In this document: piece by piece, positions 3,181 to 13,320 of the stretch | Position numbering within the stretch: position 1 is the stretch's first letter | How the letters are laid out: each line of letters opens with the position of its first letter | Assembly: GCA_029978085.1 (NCBI GenBank) | Contig: JAPOJV010000010.1 | Coordinates: 1 to 45,092, forward strand | Length of the DNA: 45,092 bases | Source of the DNA: a bacterium | GTDB taxonomy: Bacteria > Planctomycetota > Planctomycetia > Pirellulales > UBA1268 | Direction of reading: 5' to 3' | Notes under the pieces: model-generated | The model's database searches: none | Told to the model about the DNA's origin: nothing | The model's input: only the letters and a program-made list of their open reading frames with translations | Position numbers and translations under genes: made by a program

Positions 3181-4368
3181 ATGCCGTTGCTCTCTGCCGG
3201 CACGATGCCCTGGCCCACGCTCATCCCGCTCGCCATCGTCGCGGCTGCGGCCGTCGTCTGGCTGCTCGTCGTGCGACGGGCCTATCGCCGCCGGCTGCAC
3301 GACCAGCTTTCGCTCCTGCAGAGCCTCGTCGATCACTCGTCGGCCGTGATCTACCTCAAGGACCTGCAGAGCCGCTACCTGCTCGTCAACAAGCGGCACA
3401 TGGATCTGTGGCCGAAGATGCGCGACTTCAGGCCGGGCACCACACCCTATGACTGGTTTCCCGCGGAGACGGCCAAGGCGTTTATCGAGTCGGACGCGCA
3501 GGTGGCGCGAACAGGCCGCGAGTTCACGTTCACCGAGAACATCGTGCACGACGGCGAGCCGCGGACGTATGTGTCGGTGAAGTTTCCGGTGACCGACGAG
3601 AAGGGCGTCGTCATCGCCGTCGGTGGCGTTTCCACCGACGTGACGGAACTCGAGCAGACGCGGTCGCAACTCGCCCAGAAGGAGCAGGTGCTCCGCCGCC
3701 TCATCGAGGTGCAGGAGCAGGAGAAGCAGCTGCTCTGCCACGAGTTTCACGACGGCCTGATCCAGTATGCCGTCGGCGCGATCATGCTCCTCGAGACCAT
3801 GGCGGAAGACGACCGCACCCTCTCGCCGCAGGCCCGCGACACCGTGACTTCGGCCGTGGCCTGCCTCCGCCGCGGTGTCGAGGATGGCCGCCGCGTGATC
3901 CGGGGCATCCGACCTGCCGCGCTCGACGACCTGGGCCTCAAGGCCGCCATCGAGGATCTCTGCGCGCAGATGCGCGAGGCTGGCTTCACCGTCACCGCCC
4001 ACCTCGCTGCGGACATCGACACGATTCCACCCGCCCTGCAGACGACCGCCTATCGCATCGTGCAGGAGTCGCTGAGCAACGCCCGGAAGTACAGCGGCAG
4101 CAGCAACGTGGAGGTGGGCGTGCGGCGAACGGCCGACACCGTCGAACTGCACGTAGCCGATCATGGCTGCGGCTTCGATCCGCATGCCGCCGGCCGCCAG
4201 GGATTCGGACTGGTCGGCATGAACGAACGCGTGCGGCTCGCAGGAGGCGAGTGCCGGATCGAGAGCGCACCGGGCGCGGGTGCGCGGATCGACGTGCGGT
4301 TGCCGTTGTCCGATCGCGGCGGTGACGCGGCAATGATCCCCGGGGCTTCCGCGCCAGGGGATTTATGA
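3181..4368 (+). CDS. PAS-domain sensor histidine kinase, NarL/HisKA_3 type
   Basis: A 395-residue kinase. One transmembrane helix (about 12-32) leads into a PAS sensor domain (about 45-155: VIYLKDLQSRYLLVN and VGGVSTDVTELE). A short coiled stretch precedes the HisKA_3 dimerisation/phosphoacceptor motif LCHEFHDGLIQ, whose His190 is the likely phosphorylation site. The ATPase domain follows, with N-box ESLSNARKYS, G1 DHGCGFDP and G2 GFGLVGMNERV. Kinases of this type normally phosphorylate a LuxR/NarL response regulator, but none is adjacent, so it is an orphan here. A second in-frame ATG at 3205 is an equally possible start. It converges on the DUF4254 gene with a six-base overlap. Confidence 0.9.
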   Translation: MPLLSAGTMPWPTLIPLAIVAAAAVVWLLVVRRAYRRRLHDQLSLLQSLVDHSSAVIYLKDLQSRYLLVNKRHMDLWPKMRDFRPGTTPYDWFPAETAKAFIESDAQVARTGREFTFTENIVHDGEPRTYVSVKFPVTDEKGVVIAVGGVSTDVTELEQTRSQLAQKEQVLRRLIEVQEQEKQLLCHEFHDGLIQYAVGAIMLLETMAEDDRTLSPQARDTVTSAVACLRRGVEDGRRVIRGIRPAALDDLGLKAAIEDLCAQMREAGFTVTAHLAADIDTIPPALQTTAYRIVQESLSNARKYSGSSNVEVGVRRTADTVELHVADHGCGFDPHAAGRQGFGLVGMNERVRLAGGECRIESAPGAGARIDVRLPLSDRGGDAAMIPGASAPGDL

Positions 4369-4989
4369 CTGCCGGGCCTTGTAGAGATACGGGTTCATCG
4401 CCGGGTCGTTGTACATCTTCATCTGGCGAAACACCCGCAGCGGCCGCTGGCCCGCGAAGATCTCCGTGAGCAGCCGATCGGCCGCCTCCACGAGATGATC
4501 CCGCTGCAGATCGAGGATCACGAGCCGGCCGGCCGCCTTCTCGCGATGCTCCGGCGTGGCGTCGGCCCGCTCAGCCTGCTCCCGCATGTGGTAGCGGCGC
4601 AATTCTAGGATCGAGAGCCGGTCGACGGCGGCGCCGGGCGTCTCCGTGGCAGAGGCCGCGCCGGCCGGAGCGGCGATGCCGCGGGCGGCCAATTCAGCCA
4701 CGAGCCAGTCGTCGACCTTCTCGATCGCGTCGTTGCGGGCCTGGTTGTAGCGGTCGATCGCCCGCTTCACCTCCGCGATTCGGGCATCGGTGACGTCGGG
4801 AGAACGCGCGATGTCTTCCTCGTGCCAGAGGAGGAAGTTGAACCGGTGCAGGTCGCAGATCCGACCCCGCAGCTCCACTTCGGTGTGCGCCGGCTCCACC
4901 TCGTGCCACCGCGCCACCAGCGTCTCGAGCAGGGCGTCGATCTCGCCCAGTGCGGCCGGGGGCAGGTGACGATCCGAGGCAGATGACAT
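4363..4989 (-). CDS. DUF4254 protein
   Basis: A 208-residue, largely helical protein matching DUF4254: LHRFNFLLWHEEDIARSP near residues 48-65, ARNDAIEKVDDWL around 85-97, DRLSILELRRYHM near 124, and a C-terminal RPLRVFRQMKMYNDPAMNP. The ATG at 4989 is used because the family similarity starts just after it; sequence upstream in frame belongs to the ketosynthase gene read in another phase. The family's biochemical role is unknown to me. It is the last gene of a leftward set (ACP, ketosynthase-like protein, ketosynthase, this gene) separated by 34 bp from the ketosynthase, which suggests a link to acyl-chain metabolism or its export. Confidence 0.8.
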   Translation of the reverse strand: MSSASDRHLPPAALGEIDALLETLVARWHEVEPAHTEVELRGRICDLHRFNFLLWHEEDIARSPDVTDARIAEVKRAIDRYNQARNDAIEKVDDWLVAELAARGIAAPAGAASATETPGAAVDRLSILELRRYHMREQAERADATPEHREKAAGRLVILDLQRDHLVEAADRLLTEIFAGQRPLRVFRQMKMYNDPAMNPYLYKARQS

Positions 4990-5023
4990 GCAGGAGACTC
5001 CCTGAAGGACGGAACGAAATCGA

Positions 5024-6262
5024 TCAGGCGGCCTGCCGCAGCACGAGGCACAGGTTCGACCCGCCGAAGCCGAACGAGTTGCTGGCCGCCACCCGCACCC
5101 GCCGGGCCCGGGCCACGTGGGGCACGTGATCGAGCGGGCACTGCGGATCGATGCTGTCGAGATTGAGCGTGGGGGGCACGGCCTGCCGCTCGAGAGCCGC
5201 CAGACAGGCGACCGCCTCGAACGCCGCGGCACCGCTGACGAGATGCCCCGACATGCTCTTCGTCGAACTCACCGGCACGCCGTCGGTGGCCGCACCGAGC
5301 GCCATGCGGATCGCGCCTGCCTCGGCAACGTCGCCCACCGGCGTGCCGGCGGCATGGGCGTTGACGTAGTCGACCTCGTCGGGCGTCACGCCGGCATCAG
5401 TGAGCGCCCGCGTGATCGCTGCGGCCGCGTGGACGGGATCGGTGCTCGGGATCACCATGTGGGCCGCGTCGCTCGACATGCCGATGCCGGCCAGCTCGGC
5501 CCGGGGCTGCGCGCCCCTGGCCCGGGCGGCACTGGCTCGCTCCAAAACGAAGAAGCCGCCCCCTTCGCCCATCACGAAGCCGTCGCGGTCGCGGTCGAAC
5601 GGCCGCGACGCCCGCGCCGGATCGTCGCTGCGGCGGGAGAGCGCCCGCAGGGTGTAGAAGGCGGCGATGCCCACCGGGCTGATCACGTCGCAGCCTCCGG
5701 CGATGCAGGCATCCACCCAGCCGGTGTCGAGCCATGTGCGGGCGAGCGCGAGCGCGTAGCCGCTCGAGGCGCAGGCCGCGGCCACCGTCACGGCCGGACC
5801 ACGGAGTCCGAGCCGGTCAGCCATCCGGTGCACGAGCGAGCGGTCGCGCCGCGGCTCGAACACCTGCGTGCCCCCGTCGAGAAAATCGAGTTCCCACGTC
5901 TTGAGCACCTCGGCGCCGAGACCGAGCACGAGGCCGATCCGCATGCCATCGCCGCGCGGCAGCCGGGCATCGGCCAGCGCGTGCGCCGCCGGTGAGAGGC
6001 ACATCTGCTCCAGCCGGCCGAGCGACCGAAATGCCTGACTCTCGAGGCCGCAGACGGCTACCGGCGGCGCGGGGATCTCCGCGACGGGCGCCGCGAACTG
6101 CTTCGCCTCGCGGCCGAACTCACCGGGATCGATCGCCCGCACGCCCGACACACCCGCGAGCAGGGCGTCGGCGATACCAGAGACCGTGGAGCCGAGCGGC
6201 GATACGGCACCCACGCCCGTGATCACCACGGCCTCGCGGTCGGCATGAGGCTGGGTCGTCAT
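5024..6262 (-). CDS. Beta-ketoacyl-ACP synthase, FabF-like
   Basis: A 412-residue condensing enzyme with the Cys-His-His triad of KAS I/II enzymes: Cys164 in VAAACASSGYA, His303 in YVNAHAAGTPVGD and His340 in KSMSGHLVSGAA. The C-terminal NSFGFGGSN loop is also present. The usual HGTxT motif is HAAGT here, a departure from housekeeping FabF. Length is normal. It starts at ATG 6262, overlapping the stop of the upstream ketosynthase-like gene by four bases (ATGA), so the two are probably co-translated as a KS/KS-like pair. With the dedicated carrier protein upstream this points to a specialised fatty-acid or polyketide-like product rather than bulk lipid synthesis; the product is not predictable from these genes. 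Confidence 0.88.
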   Translation of the reverse strand: MTTQPHADREAVVITGVGAVSPLGSTVSGIADALLAGVSGVRAIDPGEFGREAKQFAAPVAEIPAPPVAVCGLESQAFRSLGRLEQMCLSPAAHALADARLPRGDGMRIGLVLGLGAEVLKTWELDFLDGGTQVFEPRRDRSLVHRMADRLGLRGPAVTVAAACASSGYALALARTWLDTGWVDACIAGGCDVISPVGIAAFYTLRALSRRSDDPARASRPFDRDRDGFVMGEGGGFFVLERASAARARGAQPRAELAGIGMSSDAAHMVIPSTDPVHAAAAITRALTDAGVTPDEVDYVNAHAAGTPVGDVAEAGAIRMALGAATDGVPVSSTKSMSGHLVSGAAAFEAVACLAALERQAVPPTLNLDSIDPQCPLDHVPHVARARRVRVAASNSFGFGGSNLCLVLRQAA

Positions 6263-7113
6263 GCTGCCTCCCGCCGGATCGTGGCCTGCATTGCATGGAC
6301 GGCTTGCCGCGTGAGCCGGATCTCGGCCGGCCAGGGACACTCGACGGTCCACGACGTGAGCACGCCGCCCGTGGCGCACATCGCCACCGCCCGGGCGAAG
6401 TCGCCGAGGGGATCATGCGTTTCGCCGGTCCGTGGCCGCAGCACCGGCCCATCGGGAAGATGCACGGCCAGACTGAGCGCCGCCGTGGCAGCGGGCTCGA
6501 GACACAACGCCAGCGCGCGACACGCCGGATCACCGAGCACAGCACCGTTCGCATCGAGCGTCGGCTCGTCGACCCAGTCGCTCACGACGAGCCAGACGCC
6601 GGCGGCGTCGGCACCGCCCCCCGGCTGCAGGAAGGAGACCGCGGCGAACAGGCCCTCGGCGACCGCGTCGGGTCCGCCACCGATGCCCACGTTGGGGCCG
6701 TGCATACCGAGCGCCACGCTCACGGCGCCGGCGATCGAATGCAGCGAGCACTGCGGCACGATGTGGGGCGACACACTCACGGCCCCCTGCGTTCGCAGTT
6801 TCGCCAGCGACGCGGCCGTCGCGAGCCGGCCGGCCTGGCAGCTCGCCGCCACCACGCCGTGCCCGGAGCAGTCGCGCCGGTCGGCCGGCAGCGCCGCGAT
6901 CGCAGCGAGCATCGCCTGCACCGCCACGACCGTTTGCTCGTCACAATGCCGGAGGAATCGTGACGGGAGGGCGGGACTGCCCTCCGGGCCGGGCTGATCC
7001 CGCAACGGGCCGAGCTGCGAGAGCCGCGCCTCCACGAAGGCATGCGCCGCGATCCCGCAGGCGACGGGGGCACGGGCTGGCGTCGAGGGGCGAAATGGCA
7101 TCGCGGCACGCAT
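6259..7113 (-). CDS. Ketosynthase-like protein without active-site cysteine (chain-length-factor-like)
   Basis: A 284-residue protein resembling the N-terminal half of a ketosynthase. The conserved core VSPHIVPQCSLHSIAG is followed by VALGMHGPNVGIGGGPDAVA. Aligned by eye with its neighbour (GPAVTVAAACASS), the nucleophilic Cys is replaced by Pro within GIGGGPD. The two catalytic histidine motifs are not found, and the chain is about 130 residues shorter than a normal KS. This is the pattern of a non-catalytic partner similar to chain-length factors of type II polyketide systems. It lies 22 bp after the ACP gene and overlaps the KS gene by four bases. An ATG at 7101 is an alternative start. 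Confidence 0.72.
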   Translation of the reverse strand: MRAAMPFRPSTPARAPVACGIAAHAFVEARLSQLGPLRDQPGPEGSPALPSRFLRHCDEQTVVAVQAMLAAIAALPADRRDCSGHGVVAASCQAGRLATAASLAKLRTQGAVSVSPHIVPQCSLHSIAGAVSVALGMHGPNVGIGGGPDAVAEGLFAAVSFLQPGGGADAAGVWLVVSDWVDEPTLDANGAVLGDPACRALALCLEPAATAALSLAVHLPDGPVLRPRTGETHDPLGDFARAVAMCATGGVLTSWTVECPWPAEIRLTRQAVHAMQATIRREAA

Positions 7114-7135
7114 CGATCCGAGGTCGCACGGCCGC

Positions 7136-7399
7136 TCAGGCCGCCTGCTTGCCCTTGGCGGCGATCTTCTTCTCGAGCACGTCGAGCAGGTTGCCGACGG
7201 TCTTGATGTTTTCGAGCAGCTCCGTCTCGATCTGAATGCCGAACCGGCTCTCGATGTGGAGCACGAGGCCCGCCATGTCGAGGGAGTCGAGGTTGAGGCC
7301 CTGCCGCAGCGAGGTGTTGTCCTCGAGGCCCGGATACGACTCGCCGGTCTCCTTCTCGAGGAGTTCGAGGACGATGGCGGAAAGCTCCGAGCGATTCAT
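7136..7399 (-). CDS. Acyl carrier protein
   Basis: An 87-residue acidic protein with the ACP signature LNLDSLDMAGLVLHIE. Ser39 in DSL is the expected 4'-phosphopantetheine attachment site. Helix I (ELSAIVLELLEKETG) and helix III (FGIQIETELLENIKTVGNLL) are recognisable. The Lys-rich tail after residue 77 is unusual for housekeeping AcpP. It is the first gene of the leftward ACP/KS-like/KS/DUF4254 set, which suggests it serves those condensing enzymes rather than general fatty-acid synthesis. The start at 7399 is set by homology; the longer frame upstream is shared with the opposing VanZ promoter region. Confidence 0.88.
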   Translation of the reverse strand: MNRSELSAIVLELLEKETGESYPGLEDNTSLRQGLNLDSLDMAGLVLHIESRFGIQIETELLENIKTVGNLLDVLEKKIAAKGKQAA

Positions 7400-7538
7400 G
7401 GTGGCGGCGTCTCCTGGGGATGACGGAATGGCTGGTCGAATGCGAGGCGAGAGGGTAGCGACCCGGGCCATGGCGACGAAGGGCAATATTCCGTGTAATC
7501 TGGGCACTTTCCGCCCTCGTTCCGGGTCGAAGCTTCGC

Positions 7539-7934
7539 ATGGGCCCCTCCTTCATCGCCCGGCTCGCCGCCACGGTGACCGCCGCCTACACGGCCGTGCT
7601 CGTGTTCGCGACTCACTATCCGAAGCCGCAGGAATTGCTCGGCGCGAACGCCCCGTCCGACAAGACGCTGCACGTGATGGCCTACGCCGTGCTCGCGCTG
7701 CTCGTGGGCCTCACGCTCGTGGCGGCCGGCCGCTGGACGCGACCCGCCATCGCCCGCGCCGCCGCAGGCATGGCGATCTTCGGCGCCCTCGACGAGATCA
7801 CGCAGCCCTTGCCCTGGTTTCGGCGGGCGGCCGATCCGCTCGACTGGGTCTTCGACCTCGGCGGCATCGCACTGGGCCTCGCCGCCGTCGCGGTTGCCGT
7901 CGCCATCTGGCGGAGCGTTCGCGGACGTCAGTAG
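7539..7934 (+). CDS. VanZ-like membrane protein
   Basis: A 131-residue protein with four predicted membrane helices. It has the VanZ-like pattern: THYP after the first helix, [16 protein letters not shown] in the second, [22 protein letters not shown] before the last, and a final helix ending WRSVRG. The D-x-x-x-H and DE-x-x-Q residues are the conserved features of the family, whose founding member gives low-level teicoplanin resistance; the general function is not established. An upstream in-frame ATG at 7470 is possible but would add a charged, non-membrane leader. Its last seven bases overlap the convergent UDP-glucuronate decarboxylase gene. Confidence 0.75.
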
Positions 7935-8902
7935 TTCGGCGTCGGGGCGCGGAACTCGTCGAGCTTCACCGACTTGAACCAGTCGATCGTCTTGGCAAGA
8001 CCCTCGCGGAGCGGCACCTTCGGCTCCCAGCCGAGATGCTGCCTCGCCAGCGTGATGTCGGGTTTGCGCCGCTCCGGATCGTCCACCGGCAGCGGCTTCT
8101 CGACGAGCTGTGACTTTCCACCCACGAGCTCGAGCGTGAGCTCGGCCAGCTGGCGGATCGTGAACTCACCCGGGTTGCCGATGTTCACCGGGCCGATGAA
8201 GGAATCGGGGCCGTTCATCATCCGGATCATCGCCTCGACGAGGTCGTCGCGGTAGCAGAAGCTGCGGGTCTGGGCGCCGGTGCCGAAGATCGTGATCGGC
8301 TCGCCCATGATCGCCTGCCGGATGAAGTTCGACACCACGCGGCCGTCGTAGGGATGCATCCGCGGGCCGTACGTGTTGAAGATCCGCACGATCCGGACGT
8401 TCACGCCGTTGGAGCGGTGGTAGTCCATGAACAGCGTCTCGGCGGCCCGCTTGCCTTCGTCGTAGCAGGCGCGGGGGCCGATCGGATTCACCGACCCGCG
8501 GTAGCTCTCCGCCTGCGGATGCACCTCCGGATCGCCATACACCTCGCTCGTGGAGGCCTGGAGAATCTTGGCCCGGCACCGCTTCGCCATGCCGAGCAGA
8601 TTGATGGCCCCCATCACGCTCGTCTTCATCGTCTTGATGGGGTTGTATTGATAGTGGCCCGGCGCGGCGGGGCAGGCGAGGTTGTAGATCTCGTCGACCT
8701 CGAGCCAGAGCGGATGGATCACGTCGTGGCGGATCAGCTCGAAGTTGCCGCAGCCGAGCAGGTGGGCGACGTTCGACTTCTGGCTCGTGAAGAAGTTGTC
8801 GACGCAGACGACGTCGTGCCCCTCGGCGACGAGCCGCTCGCAGAGATGGCTGCCCAGAAAACCGGCACCGCCGGTGACGAGGATGCGTTTGATGGAGGGC
8901 AT
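7928..8902 (-). CDS. UDP-glucuronate decarboxylase (UDP-xylose synthase)
   Basis: A 324-residue extended short-chain dehydrogenase. The Rossmann motif GGAGFLGSH (11-19) is followed by [18 protein letters not shown], the characteristic UXS stretch. The catalytic set is Thr/Ser near 118 (STSEVYGDP) and Tyr147-x-x-x-Lys151 in [27 protein letters not shown] completes the family pattern. The enzyme oxidises UDP-glucuronate at C4 and decarboxylates it to UDP-xylose, a precursor of surface polysaccharides. No glycosyltransferases are adjacent, so it appears to stand alone. The start is well defined by the N-terminal Rossmann strand. Confidence 0.93.
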
Positions 8903-9140
8903 GGACGACTCCCTGGAGAACGTGACGAGGCCCTTGGTCTACCACGCCCACGGTTGGCTGTCAGCGACCCTCACTTCAGCGAACCAGGAAACTCGGCCGG
9001 GGCCAGTTCTCCGGTGGTTCACACGGCAATCAGACCGTCACTGGCCCGATCGTTGCAGCGGCGCAGACGCGGAGATACGGTGACCTATAGGAATGGATCA
9101 CATCTCGCCCGCGGATCGCGCCGCCCAGGAGCCCCTCTTC

Positions 9141-12100
9141 ATGATCGCTCGTTTTCCCCTCCGCGATCGCCAGCGGCCGGCTCGCCGTCGACTCGGTCTC
9201 GAGCGATTGGAACAGCGGGCCGTGCTTAACGGCTCCCCGGTGACGACGCTCGAGTTCCAGATCCCCGCCCATGTGGCCAACCAGGGCGTGCAGTTCGGCC
9301 TCTGGGGCACCGATGCCAACGGGCATCCTCAGTACATGAAGTCGGACCACACGTTCGCCCGCGTCGACAGCCTCCCCGCGAACACGGCGCAGCTTCCCCT
9401 GGTCCCGCTGGGCCACGGACATTCATACACGACGACGCAGACGTTTAGCATCGGCGTGCCGAACGTGCAGAACATGTCGAGTGGCCTGGTGTTCTTCGTG
9501 GGCCCGGTGACCAACGGCATCGCGGTCAACCTCGACTCCAACAACGACCCCGTGTCGGTCGCCGCGCCGACACCCGGGACGAGTCGTACGGATGTGTATG
9601 GCTTCTTCGAACTCAACAACGCCGTCGCCGGCGGCTCCAGCCAGCTCGACGTCGACGTGACCACTGTCGATCAGTTCGGCATTCCATTCTCCGTCGACTT
9701 CTTCCAGGCCGACGGCACCACCCGGATCGCGACGATGTATCCCTACAACGAAGGCGTGGGCACGCTGCCCGCCATCGACCGGGCGTCGTTCTTCGAGGCC
9801 TTCCAGGCCGAGCACGGGGCGGCGACCGATCCCTTCAGCCTCTGCCTGACGCTCGGCACCATCGACTCCACCGTCGCCCGGCTCGTATCACCGCGGAGCC
9901 TCGTCACCGAATCGGCGTACGTCGGTCAGACGGGCCTGCTCGACACCTACTTCGACGGCACGATCAAGGAGTTCTTCGCGTACTACAAGGACAACGACTT
10001 CACCTACATGCAGCCGCAGCAGGTGGGCGCTGGTTTCGGCACGACATGGGTGGGCAGGACGGTGACGGTGCCGGGCAGTTACACGGAAGGATCACCGGTC
10101 GACCCGACCACAACGTTCGGCATCCAGGCGTTGCAACTCAAGGGCAGCACGGGCATCCGTGCGATCGTGGTGGCCGATGGCGGCAAGGGCTACGACGCGC
10201 CGCCCACGGTGACGATCGCTCCGCCCGACGACCCGAACGGCGTACAGGCCACCGCGACGGCAGTGCTCAAGAATGGGGCCGTGGCCGCCATCGTGATCGA
10301 CAACCCGGGAGGAGGCTACACGACGGCGCCCGCCGTCACGCTCAGCCCACCCACAGGAACGGCCCCCATCAAGGAGCAGGCCACGGCGGAACTCGGCACG
10401 ATCAACGAGTTCGCCGGCGCGGTCGTGAACATCTACAACCCAAAATCGGTCGCCTTCAACAAGGCGACCCTGCCCGCCTGGATGGCCTCGGGGAGCGTCC
10501 AGTGGGGCCAGTCGACGCCGTCGGCGATGGTGTTCGCGGGTATGGACGCCTTTGCCAGCAACACGGTCGATCCGGGCGTGCAGAATCCCACGCCGGGCAC
10601 GCCCAACGCGACGTATGCCGCCACGCTCCCCACGGCCCTGGGCAATATCGAGAACGTGATCGTGTCGGCCTTCGTGCGCGGCATCGCCACCATGCCGAGC
10701 ACGACGGCCCTGAGCCCTGCCGACCCGACGAAGCCCGCCCTGCTCACGCCGCAACAATTCCTGGCGGGAACATCGGCCGCACCACTCGCCTGGCAGGCCG
10801 ACCCCGCCGGCCTCAACCTGGCGGGCGGCACCCTCCAGCCGAACACCCAGTATTTCTACGCCGTCACCACGGTGGACGCCGCGGGCAACGAGACGGTGCC
10901 CACCCGCGTGGTGCAGACGCCGCTCGCCGCCCACCAAAACGCGGCGCAGCTTTCCTGGCTGGCGAACGCCAGCCCCCTGGTGGCGACGTTTCGCGTGTAC
11001 CGCGGCACGTCGGCCGAGTCGCTCGCACTCGTGGGGGAGGTGGCCAACGACCTGCTGAACCCGGCGACCGGCTTCACCGACGGCAATCCGCAGAACGCGC
11101 CTCCGGCCAACGCGGGAACGGCCCCGCCCTACACCTTCTATGCCGCGGGCCGAAAGTACGACGCGTATTCGAAGTTTCTGCACGAGCGGTTCATCAATGG
11201 GCTCGGCTACGGCAACGCCTTCGACGATCAGGGCAATTTTTCGACCAACGTGGAGTTTCCCCCCGGCGGCCAGCCCCCCATCACGCGGATCGTGATCGGC
11301 GACTGGGGACAGGCCGAGCGGTTCAGCGCCACCGCGCCGGCAACGGCCGTCGCCGGCGCTTCCTTCACGATCGACGTGACCGCCGAAGCAGGCGACATGC
11401 TTTCCTTCCGGAGCAGCGATCCGCAGGCCGTGCTGCCGGCGACGCAGGCGTTCAATCCCGCGGCCGCCAGCCTGCCGATCACCCTCAAGACCGCTGGCGT
11501 GCAGACCGTCACGGTGACCGATGCGACGGGACGCGAGGCGATCGTCACCGTCACCGTCGCAGCCGCGCAGGCAGCGAAGCTGGCCTTCGCCCAGCAGCCG
11601 GGGTTCGTGTTCGCCCAGCAGCCGTTCGCCGCGGCCGTGGCCGTGCAGGTGCAGGATGCCTACGGCAATCCGGTGAGCCTCGGCGGCGACCAGGTGAGCC
11701 TGTCGTTCCTGTCGGCCAACGGTGCCACGCTCTCGGGCACCACGCAGACGAACACCGACGCCAACGGCCTGGCCGTCTTCCCCCGCACCGGCTCGGCGGG
11801 CCTCAAGGTGAGCAAGCCGGGCAACTACGCCCTCGTGGCCAGCTTCACCGGAGGCACGCCGCTCCAGATCGCGGCGGCCACGTCGGCCACGTTCAGCGTG
11901 TCGAAGGTGGCGAAGCTCGTGGTGGCGGCGCCGTCCCGCGTGCAGGCCAACGTGCCGTTCCAGCTCACCGTCACCGGGCCCGATCAGTATTTCCAGGGCA
12001 CGGTGACGTTCGCCGCAGCCGGTGACGCCAAGGTGGTGGGACTCGACGGCGTACTCCGGCCGCTCAACCGCTACTCCTACACGTTTACCCCCGGCGATGC

Positions 12101-12254
12101 CGCCAGCCGCACGTTCACCGTGTCGCTGGGCAAGCCCTTCACGACCCGCACGATCACGGCGTCGACCAGCCTGCCCTCGCAGTACAACGGCATCGACACC
12201 GTGGTCGTGAAGGCGCCGTCGACCCGGCGCTCCCGGCTCGGCGCCGGCAGATAG
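9141..12254 (+). CDS. Large secreted GH64-like protein with inserted domains and Ig-like tail
   Basis: A 1037-residue protein beginning with a basic segment and RRLGLERLEQRAVLNG, a planctomycete-type N-terminal motif of exported proteins. Residues ~35-310 resemble the beta-1,3-glucanase (GH64/thaumatin-like) fold: SSGLVFFVGPV, DVYGFFELNN and VTTVDQFGIPFSV. Glu157 and Asp177 fall where I expect the catalytic pair. The fold's closing segment (YDAYSKFLHERFINGLGYG, FAFDD-like) appears only near 670-725. Between them lie a two-unit GxGYxxxPxVT repeat (~327-400) and a fibronectin-III-like stretch (~517-650). Two or three Ig-like domains fill 728-1037. No dockerin or PEP-CTERM is seen. ATG 9141 is preferred because AGGAG lies 10 bases upstream and the export motif follows; 9093 is an alternative. 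Confidence 0.72.
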   Translation: MIARFPLRDRQRPARRRLGLERLEQRAVLNGSPVTTLEFQIPAHVANQGVQFGLWGTDANGHPQYMKSDHTFARVDSLPANTAQLPLVPLGHGHSYTTTQTFSIGVPNVQNMSSGLVFFVGPVTNGIAVNLDSNNDPVSVAAPTPGTSRTDVYGFFELNNAVAGGSSQLDVDVTTVDQFGIPFSVDFFQADGTTRIATMYPYNEGVGTLPAIDRASFFEAFQAEHGAATDPFSLCLTLGTIDSTVARLVSPRSLVTESAYVGQTGLLDTYFDGTIKEFFAYYKDNDFTYMQPQQVGAGFGTTWVGRTVTVPGSYTEGSPVDPTTTFGIQALQLKGSTGIRAIVVADGGKGYDAPPTVTIAPPDDPNGVQATATAVLKNGAVAAIVIDNPGGGYTTAPAVTLSPPTGTAPIKEQATAELGTINEFAGAVVNIYNPKSVAFNKATLPAWMASGSVQWGQSTPSAMVFAGMDAFASNTVDPGVQNPTPGTPNATYAATLPTALGNIENVIVSAFVRGIATMPSTTALSPADPTKPALLTPQQFLAGTSAAPLAWQADPAGLNLAGGTLQPNTQYFYAVTTVDAAGNETVPTRVVQTPLAAHQNAAQLSWLANASPLVATFRVYRGTSAESLALVGEVANDLLNPATGFTDGNPQNAPPANAGTAPPYTFYAAGRKYDAYSKFLHERFINGLGYGNAFDDQGNFSTNVEFPPGGQPPITRIVIGDWGQAERFSATAPATAVAGASFTIDVTAEAGDMLSFRSSDPQAVLPATQAFNPAAASLPITLKTAGVQTVTVTDATGREAIVTVTVAAAQAAKLAFAQQPGFVFAQQPFAAAVAVQVQDAYGNPVSLGGDQVSLSFLSANGATLSGTTQTNTDANGLAVFPRTGSAGLKVSKPGNYALVASFTGGTPLQIAAATSATFSVSKVAKLVVAAPSRVQANVPFQLTVTGPDQYFQGTVTFAAAGDAKVVGLDGVLRPLNRYSYTFTPGDAASRTFTVSLGKPFTTRTITASTSLPSQYNGIDTVVVKAPSTRRSRLGAGR

Positions 12255-12390: not shown

Positions 12391-13320
12391 ATGACCGATC
12401 AGTTCACCCGTCGCGAAGCCATCACCGCGGCCGCCGGCACGCTCGCCGCGGCCGCGCCGCTCGCACTTTCCCCGTCACCCGCAGGAGCCGCTCCGATGAA
12501 GGGCCGCATCAAGCAATCGCTCGTCCAGTGGTGCTACAGCATGACCGGCGACCAATGGGACATCGAGAAGCTCTGCCAGGTCGCGAAGGACCTCGGCTGC
12601 AAGTCGATCGAGCTGGCCGCCCCCGACACCTGGCCGACGCTCAAGAAGCACGGCCTCGTCTGCGCCCTGGCTCCCAACGGCATGCCCGGCGCGCCCTTCA
12701 TGAAGGGCTTCAACAACCCGGCCTACCAGCCCGAGGTAATCGCCCGCACGACCGAGATGATCGACGCCTGCGCCGAAGCCGGTTTCCCGGCGGTGATCGC
12801 CTTCACCGGCTACAAGTATCGCGACGCCGAGGATCCGAAGAGCGGCGAGATCTCGCTCGAGGAAGGTGCGGCGAACTGCGTGAAGGGGCTCAAGCAGATC
12901 GCGAGCCACGCCGAGAAGAAGGGCGTGACGATCTGCCTCGAGCACCTCAACACCCGTGACGACTCGCACCCGATGAAGGGACATCCCGGCTATCAGGGCG
13001 ACGACATCGACTATGTGGCGAACATCGTGCGGAAGGTGGGGTCGCCCCGCGTGAAGCTGCTGTTCGACTTCTATCACGTGCAGGTGATGAACGGCGACCT
13101 GATCCGCCGCGTGGAGCAGTGCAAGGACGTGATCGGCCACATCCACGTGGCCGGCTGCCCGGGCCGCGGCGAGCTCGATGAGAACCAGGAGATCTACTTT
13201 CCGCCGCTGATGCGGAAGCTCCTCGACATCGGCTACGAGGGCTACGTGGGCCAGGAGTTCATCCCTACCCGCGACGCCCTCGCCAGCCTGAAGCAGGCCG
13301 TCGCCGCCTGCGACGTGTGA
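12391..13320 (+). CDS. Hydroxypyruvate isomerase-like TIM-barrel enzyme with Tat signal
   Basis: A 309-residue protein. The N-terminus FTRREAITAAAGTLAAAAP is a twin-arginine signal. The mature part is an AP-endonuclease-2-type TIM barrel (xylose isomerase-like) of the hydroxypyruvate isomerase family: SLVQWCY, LEHLNTRDDSHPMKGHPGY, LLFDFYHVQVMNGD, IGHIHVAGCPGRGELD and YVGQEFIPT. Conserved Glu, Asp, His and Glu residues match the metal-binding set. Family members interconvert hydroxypyruvate and tartronate semialdehyde. The convergent neighbour is glycerate kinase, which acts two steps further in the same glyoxylate-to-glycerate route. Planctomycetes have many Tat-exported barrels of uncertain substrate, so the exact reaction is not certain. 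Confidence 0.75.
   Translation: MTDQFTRREAITAAAGTLAAAAPLALSPSPAGAAPMKGRIKQSLVQWCYSMTGDQWDIEKLCQVAKDLGCKSIELAAPDTWPTLKKHGLVCALAPNGMPGAPFMKGFNNPAYQPEVIARTTEMIDACAEAGFPAVIAFTGYKYRDAEDPKSGEISLEEGAANCVKGLKQIASHAEKKGVTICLEHLNTRDDSHPMKGHPGYQGDDIDYVANIVRKVGSPRVKLLFDFYHVQVMNGDLIRRVEQCKDVIGHIHVAGCPGRGELDENQEIYFPPLMRKLLDIGYEGYVGQEFIPTRDALASLKQAVAACDV

Follow-up and report, generated by a model that had tools for sequence, protein, structure and literature searches.

A conserved Pirellulales operon with a ketosynthase and a half-size, cysteine-less ketosynthase-like partner: a candidate source of acyl chains for lipid A

The occurrence in a planctomycete genome of a compact operon, in which the gene for a ketosynthase (KS) is accompanied by that for a short KS-like protein lacking the nucleophilic cysteine and by genes for a dedicated acyl carrier protein (ACP) and a DUF4254 protein, raises the question of what acyl chain such a gene set makes and where this chain is used. 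The operon lies in a 45,092-nucleotide stretch of DNA (contig JAPOJV010000010.1 of assembly GCA_029978085.1, order Pirellulales), which was analysed at its full length and is referred to here as the window; the carriers of the ACP/KS-like/KS set are lake planctomycetes. All four genes, described in an initial annotation as running leftwards, were found on the minus strand (Table 1). The interval 5024-7399 given for them there holds the ACP, KS-like and KS genes, with the DUF4254 gene lying outside of it, and of the gene overlaps that it reported only the 4-nt overlap between the KS-like and KS genes is seen, whereas the ACP/KS-like and KS/DUF4254 junctions contain gaps of 22 and 34 nt, respectively. 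An ATGA of this kind is present at 43 of 67 KS-like/KS junctions in the GTDB loci described below, and it represents translational coupling of the two genes. The DUF4254 protein scores 169.3 bits against PF14063 (gathering cut-off 27) and is thus a member of this family. The phosphopantetheine motif of the ACP is LDSLD, whose DS residues are present in each of the nine ACPs compared (that of the window and those of eight loci outside the family to which its genome belongs), and DSLD is found in 34/34 ACPs of the window's family. Ketoreductase, dehydratase and thioesterase were, as previously claimed, all lacking among the seven proteins scanned, which are those of the operon and its flanks (3184-8902). 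Elsewhere in the window, a VanZ-like frame and genes resembling NAD-dependent sugar epimerase/decarboxylases and xylose isomerases (7545-8902 and 12391-13320) are kept upstream of the operon across the window's family; a large protein encoded at 9093-12251 has a match to a beta-1,3-glucanase (GH64) domain, and two short adjoining frames at 872-1479 resemble, by their layout alone, a small module of two genes.

Table 1. Genes of the operon and the junction between the KS-like and KS genes, in window coordinates
Feature	Position	Strand	Description
Acyl carrier protein (ACP)	7399-7136	-	87 aa; PF00550 E 3e-9
KS-like protein	7113-6259	-	284 aa; PF00109 E 1.2e-4 over residues 55-144, barely above gathering score
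Ketosynthase (KS)	6262-5024	-	412 aa; PF00109 E 1e-38, PF02801 E 3e-33
DUF4254 protein	4989-4363	-	208 aa, all-helical; PF14063 E 5.7e-50
4-nt ATGA overlap	6259..6262	-	joins KS-like and KS genes

The conservation of this gene order in relatives, which had been proposed as a check and whose absence would have counted against the proposal, is borne out by 73 GTDB loci of the KS-like gene, many of them from the same genomes as our G-numbered set. In 67 of these loci the gene after the KS-like gene is a KS gene (five others are cut by a contig end and the KS is missing in one, L092), an ACP gene precedes it in 66 (missing in six, cut in one) and a DUF4254 gene comes after the KS in 56 (absent in nine, cut in eight). 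In the exceptional locus L092, which is on the same contig as L066, the arrangement ACP-KS-like-DUF4254 is seen at about 1100-2700 with the KS missing between; a KS-like-KS pair is present on another contig of this bin (L094), and the absence points either to gene loss or to an artificial join introduced by assembly or binning. Within the window's family the KS-like gene was matched in 52 genomes (in G539 only partially), and two genomes lack it among the matches listed. Among the 396 genomes of the order that were examined, strong matches were found in 10 more Pirellulales genomes outside this family; nine weak matches, among the 71 genomes of the order with a match, are inside full-length KS frames and were rejected as KS-like genes. 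Across the phylum (392 genomes, E 1e-9) the gene was found in the window's own genome only, in a search whose sensitivity is limited, as six candidates were scored per genome. Literature searches on DUF4254, on planctomycete chain length factor and ketosynthase, and on Planctopirus lipid A returned little or nothing on this set, and none was found for Pirellula with long-chain 3-hydroxy terms. The gene set is thus real, conserved and under-described.

In the GIGGGPD motif of the KS-like protein the position of the KS nucleophile is occupied by Pro148, so that the Cys to Pro replacement noted earlier is correct, and among 58 aligned sequences this position holds Pro in 52, Gln, Thr and Val in two each, and Cys in none. 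An AlphaFold2 model obtained with these 58 sequences as input (pLDDT 88.4, pTM 0.87) has as its top Foldseek match 6qsp_B (E 7e-8), which is ApeC, the chain length factor of the aryl-polyene synthase pair ApeO-ApeC (PDB 6QSP), followed by 7f28_C and 7f28_A, the short chains of a bacterial ketosynthase entry. By VIA the model is related to many KSs with Z of 17-18 and to ApeC with 17.1 over 211 residues; since VIA rows no more than 1 Z unit apart count as tied, this comparison does not single out ApeC. Against full KSs, the VIA alignments span the chain from beginning to end, yet cover only ~235 of its ~412 residues, a pattern in the model that fits the retention of the N-terminal half and the last strands. 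ApeC is itself described as half the size of a KS, with the first thiolase domain mostly retained and the second almost lost (in the account given in PMC8358021), and the window's pair resembles ApeO-ApeC in having a KS with an intact triad (C164, H303 and H340 in 32/32) adjoining a Cys-less, roughly half-size partner with a single thiolase fold. Where the two differ is in sequence, the identity between the KS-like protein and ApeC being 17-18%, and in companions, as the window's KS is FabF-like and aryl-polyene companions are lacking in the flank that was scanned. The window's KS-like protein also scores below the cut-off for PF13723 (16.1 bits versus 25), to which we take ApeC to be assigned; at E 0.05 this profile matches 5/58 members, and PF00109 matches 9/58. 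A profile-profile comparison of the KS-like and KS families recovered no relationship (probability 2.3), and by sequence the KS-like family is remote from KSs.

In the actinorhodin and ishigamide KS-CLFs a catalytic KS is likewise paired with a Cys-less partner. The KS-like model matches their chain length factors (CLFs) by Foldseek (1tqy_B and 6kxd_B), but these CLFs, of 402 and 364 residues, are not half-size, and the products are different. The initial annotation had viewed the KS and the KS-like protein as an echo of type II polyketide KS/CLF pairs that departs from them in the length of the partner. The echo holds in so far as the fold is CLF-like, whereas the half length is no departure, because ApeC, the best fold match, is likewise a half-size CLF, and this length therefore corresponds to a known architecture and not to decay. 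Comparison of the KS-like gene with that of the window's nearest relative gives dN 0.13 and dS 0.60 (dN/dS ~0.22), and the gene is under purifying selection. The possibility that the short protein is the decayed half of a full KS, which had been named as what would refute the proposal, is ruled out by this selection and by the conservation of the locus.

The full-length KS is an intact enzyme by its residues, the triad C164-H303-H340 reported earlier being, together with K335 and F202, invariant in all 32 aligned KSs of the window's family. It scores 359 bits with the FabF model, far above the 243 bits with a polyketide KS model, and it resembles FabF (KAS II) in keeping the C-H-H-K residues and Phe202 and in showing ~40% identity to the several other, FabF-type KSs encoded by the window's genome. 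Its score against the FabF equivalog model TIGR03150 (358.8 bits) is below the cut-off of 493.75. At the position of Ile108, given as the FabF gating residue in PMC7138838, it has Ala117, the alignment containing Ala here in 30/32 and Gly in 2/32 sequences; this replacement could leave more space in the pocket. A tree of 52 KSs places the 26 with a KS-like partner in one clade (100/99 support) separate from 26 other KSs. This tree left out four sequences shorter than 330 aa (L207, L208, L234 and L240) and drew its comparison set from other KSs of the genomes examined; for the aryl-polyene, ladderane and type II PKS clades the comparison was by score rank only. The partnered KSs are hence of common ancestry, apart from ordinary FabFs. 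For the KS gene, the comparison with the window's nearest relative yields dN 0.06 and dS 0.43.

The neighbours of the pair outside the window's family bear upon the destination of the chain. There are 14 distinct KS-like/KS loci of this kind, L143 being the same stretch as L104. In six of them (L104, L123, L131, L133, L147 and L149), genes in the order DUF374-ACP-KS-like-KS are contiguous and on one strand, the DUF374 calls coming from Pfam on L143, L147, L149 and L123 and, for L131 and L133, from genome searches covering their contigs. According to PMC6148475, DUF374 corresponds to LpxJ, a family of late acyltransferases of lipid A. The deepest fork in the partnered-KS clade has loci bearing it on either side, and in G595 and G712 the DUF374 gene of the locus is the sole DUF374 match of the genome. 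The chance of finding DUF374 within 2 kb in 5/10 genomes is ~2.5e-13 if independence is assumed, although these genomes are not fully independent. In a seventh locus (L150), LpxD and LpxI genes are directly upstream of KS-like-KS. Of the remainder, L140, L148 and L154 have a BioF/Kbl-family (alpha-oxoamine synthase) gene beside the pair; in L064, L141 and L142 the scan of the neighbours showed no lipid gene, L141 and L142 having DnaJ and EngA-type GTPase genes; and L121, cut by a contig end, has a 25-bit DUF374 remnant, which is uncalled by Pfam and was left out of the count. In L148 (8903-9727) and L154 (6982-7749), from two families, a DUF6134 gene is placed between the BioF/Kbl-family gene and KS-like-KS, which is a possible clue to the function of DUF6134.

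A working parallel in gene content, drawn by analogy, is provided by the rhizobial cassette acpXL-fabZXL-fabF2XL-fabF1XL-adh-lpxXL. For the A. fabrum genes acpXL-fabF2XL-fabF1XL-lpxXL, the account in PMC11901934 states that the lipid A of fabF2XL mutants is devoid of the very long chain. Like this cassette, the window's operon combines a dedicated ACP with two neighbouring KS-type genes, and the accompanying lipid A late acyltransferase gene is found in the window's relatives only. The planctomycete set differs in having DUF374/LpxJ in place of LpxXL, in lacking FabZ and the dehydrogenase, and in one KS being half-size. In the window's operon itself no lipid A late acyltransferase gene is present, and the DUF374 gene of its genome is on contig C10. 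Among 40 relatives LpxC is present in 39 and DUF374 in 38, and the window's genome has both; since these are on contigs other than that of the operon, the linkage to lipid A in the window's family rests mainly on DUF4254. In one locus of this family (L041), a DUF374-like gene truncated by a contig end lies ~4 kb upstream of the operon, although the Pfam search listing of that genome does not include it.

The DUF4254 gene was earlier suggested to be a functional clue by virtue of belonging to the set. It does provide a clue, and one that points to the LPS core and lipid A and away from polyketides, but it is not bound to the set. DUF4254 is single-copy in 98/147 Pirellulales genomes, many of which belong to families other than the one holding the KS-like gene, and it is beside the KS-like/KS pair in none of the 14 outside loci; a KS-specific partner is thereby ruled out. 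Among 20 DUF4254 loci from other families than that of the window, 7 have a glycosyltransferase family 9 (GT9) gene nearby and 9 an M28 peptidase gene (including L184, L186, L188, L191, L193 and L198), both identities being from Pfam on one representative of each. A survey links DUF4254 to RfaF in flavobacteria (PMC9425974). The AlphaFold2 model of the window's protein is a helical bundle (pLDDT 86.9), a weak query for which the fold search gave no match with E <0.001 and Z values of at most 7.4. Its gene shows dN 0.028 and dS 0.29 in the comparison with the nearest relative. In L192 (6868-8913), DUF4254 occupies the C-terminus of an open reading frame of 682 aa.

Based on these results, we favour by a slight balance of probability the interpretation that the operon encodes a KS/half-CLF elongase, working on its own ACP and making a special acyl chain for lipid A or LPS. 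The KS would be the catalytic member of a putative heterodimer and the Cys-less KS-like protein its chain-length factor, which would complete the dimer-interface wall of the acyl tunnel with no covalent binding of substrate. The pair would extend acyl groups on the dedicated ACP with malonyl units, and the housekeeping fatty acid synthase, whose genes are elsewhere, would carry out the ketoreduction and any dehydration and enoyl reduction required. The product may be a long chain, perhaps a 3-hydroxy one. Its presumed destination is outer-membrane lipid A/LPS, because DUF374 or LpxD-LpxI genes adjoin the set in relatives, DUF4254 is linked to GT9 and RfaF, and lipid A genes are present; heterodimer and chain extension are inferred, as is the LPS destination in the window's family. 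A more specific form of this proposal, in which a KS/half-CLF lineage confined to some planctomycetes serves primary envelope lipid synthesis, building a special long lipid A chain on its private ACP for an LpxJ-type acyltransferase, and the DUF4254 gene of the window's family encodes an LPS assembly factor, is advanced tentatively, as somewhat short of an even chance. To our knowledge, no KS/half-CLF pair serving lipid A instead of a polyketide has been described. The LPS of P. limnophilus is reported to contain 3-OH 14:0, 3-OH 20:0 and 3-OH 18:0 (PMC3035269). Since the KS-like gene is not found in most planctomycetes, the pair is not the general source of long 3-hydroxy acids.

The loci with a BioF/Kbl-family gene beside the pair, two of which also have DUF6134, could instead be understood if the pair were a general supplier, providing a special acyl-ACP to lineage-specific acceptors such as an alpha-oxoamine synthase (for a sphingoid-base-like or amino-ketone lipid). 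The enzymes in question score 274-278 bits to bioF against a cut-off of 426, and their substrate is not fixed by this score. This interpretation is unlikely, as such genes are found in only 3/14 outside loci, whereas linkage to lipid A is commoner (7/14) and spans both sides of the deepest fork. Less probable still is a secondary-metabolite type II PKS with a half-size CLF, making an aryl-polyene-like polyene or a small aromatic. ApeC is the nearest fold by Foldseek and planctomycete KS-CLFs are included in a type II PKS catalogue (PMC10132072), but besides the missing reductase and dehydratase no ligase, second ACP or ApeR is present among the seven proteins scanned at 3184-8902, the KS is closer to FabF than to the polyketide KS model, and the distribution of the KS-like gene within the window's family is that of a core-like gene. 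That the KS-like protein is a relic or structural decoy with no role in chain extension is equally improbable, for although its dN is roughly double the KS value and the C-terminal catalytic half is missing, its gene is under purifying selection, is kept beside the KS gene across families and is translationally coupled to it.

If the lipid A interpretation is correct, KS/CLF tunnels would set chain length in a membrane lipid. A second, sequence-distant kind of half-size CLF, situated beside lipid A acyltransferase genes, would then provide a gene handle on lipid A acylation in planctomycetes, whose lipid A was reportedly found by Kerger et al. in 1988 to be unusually rich in long beta-hydroxy acids. 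If confirmed, it would account for a little-understood part of planctomycete biology and would also give DUF4254 a functional context.
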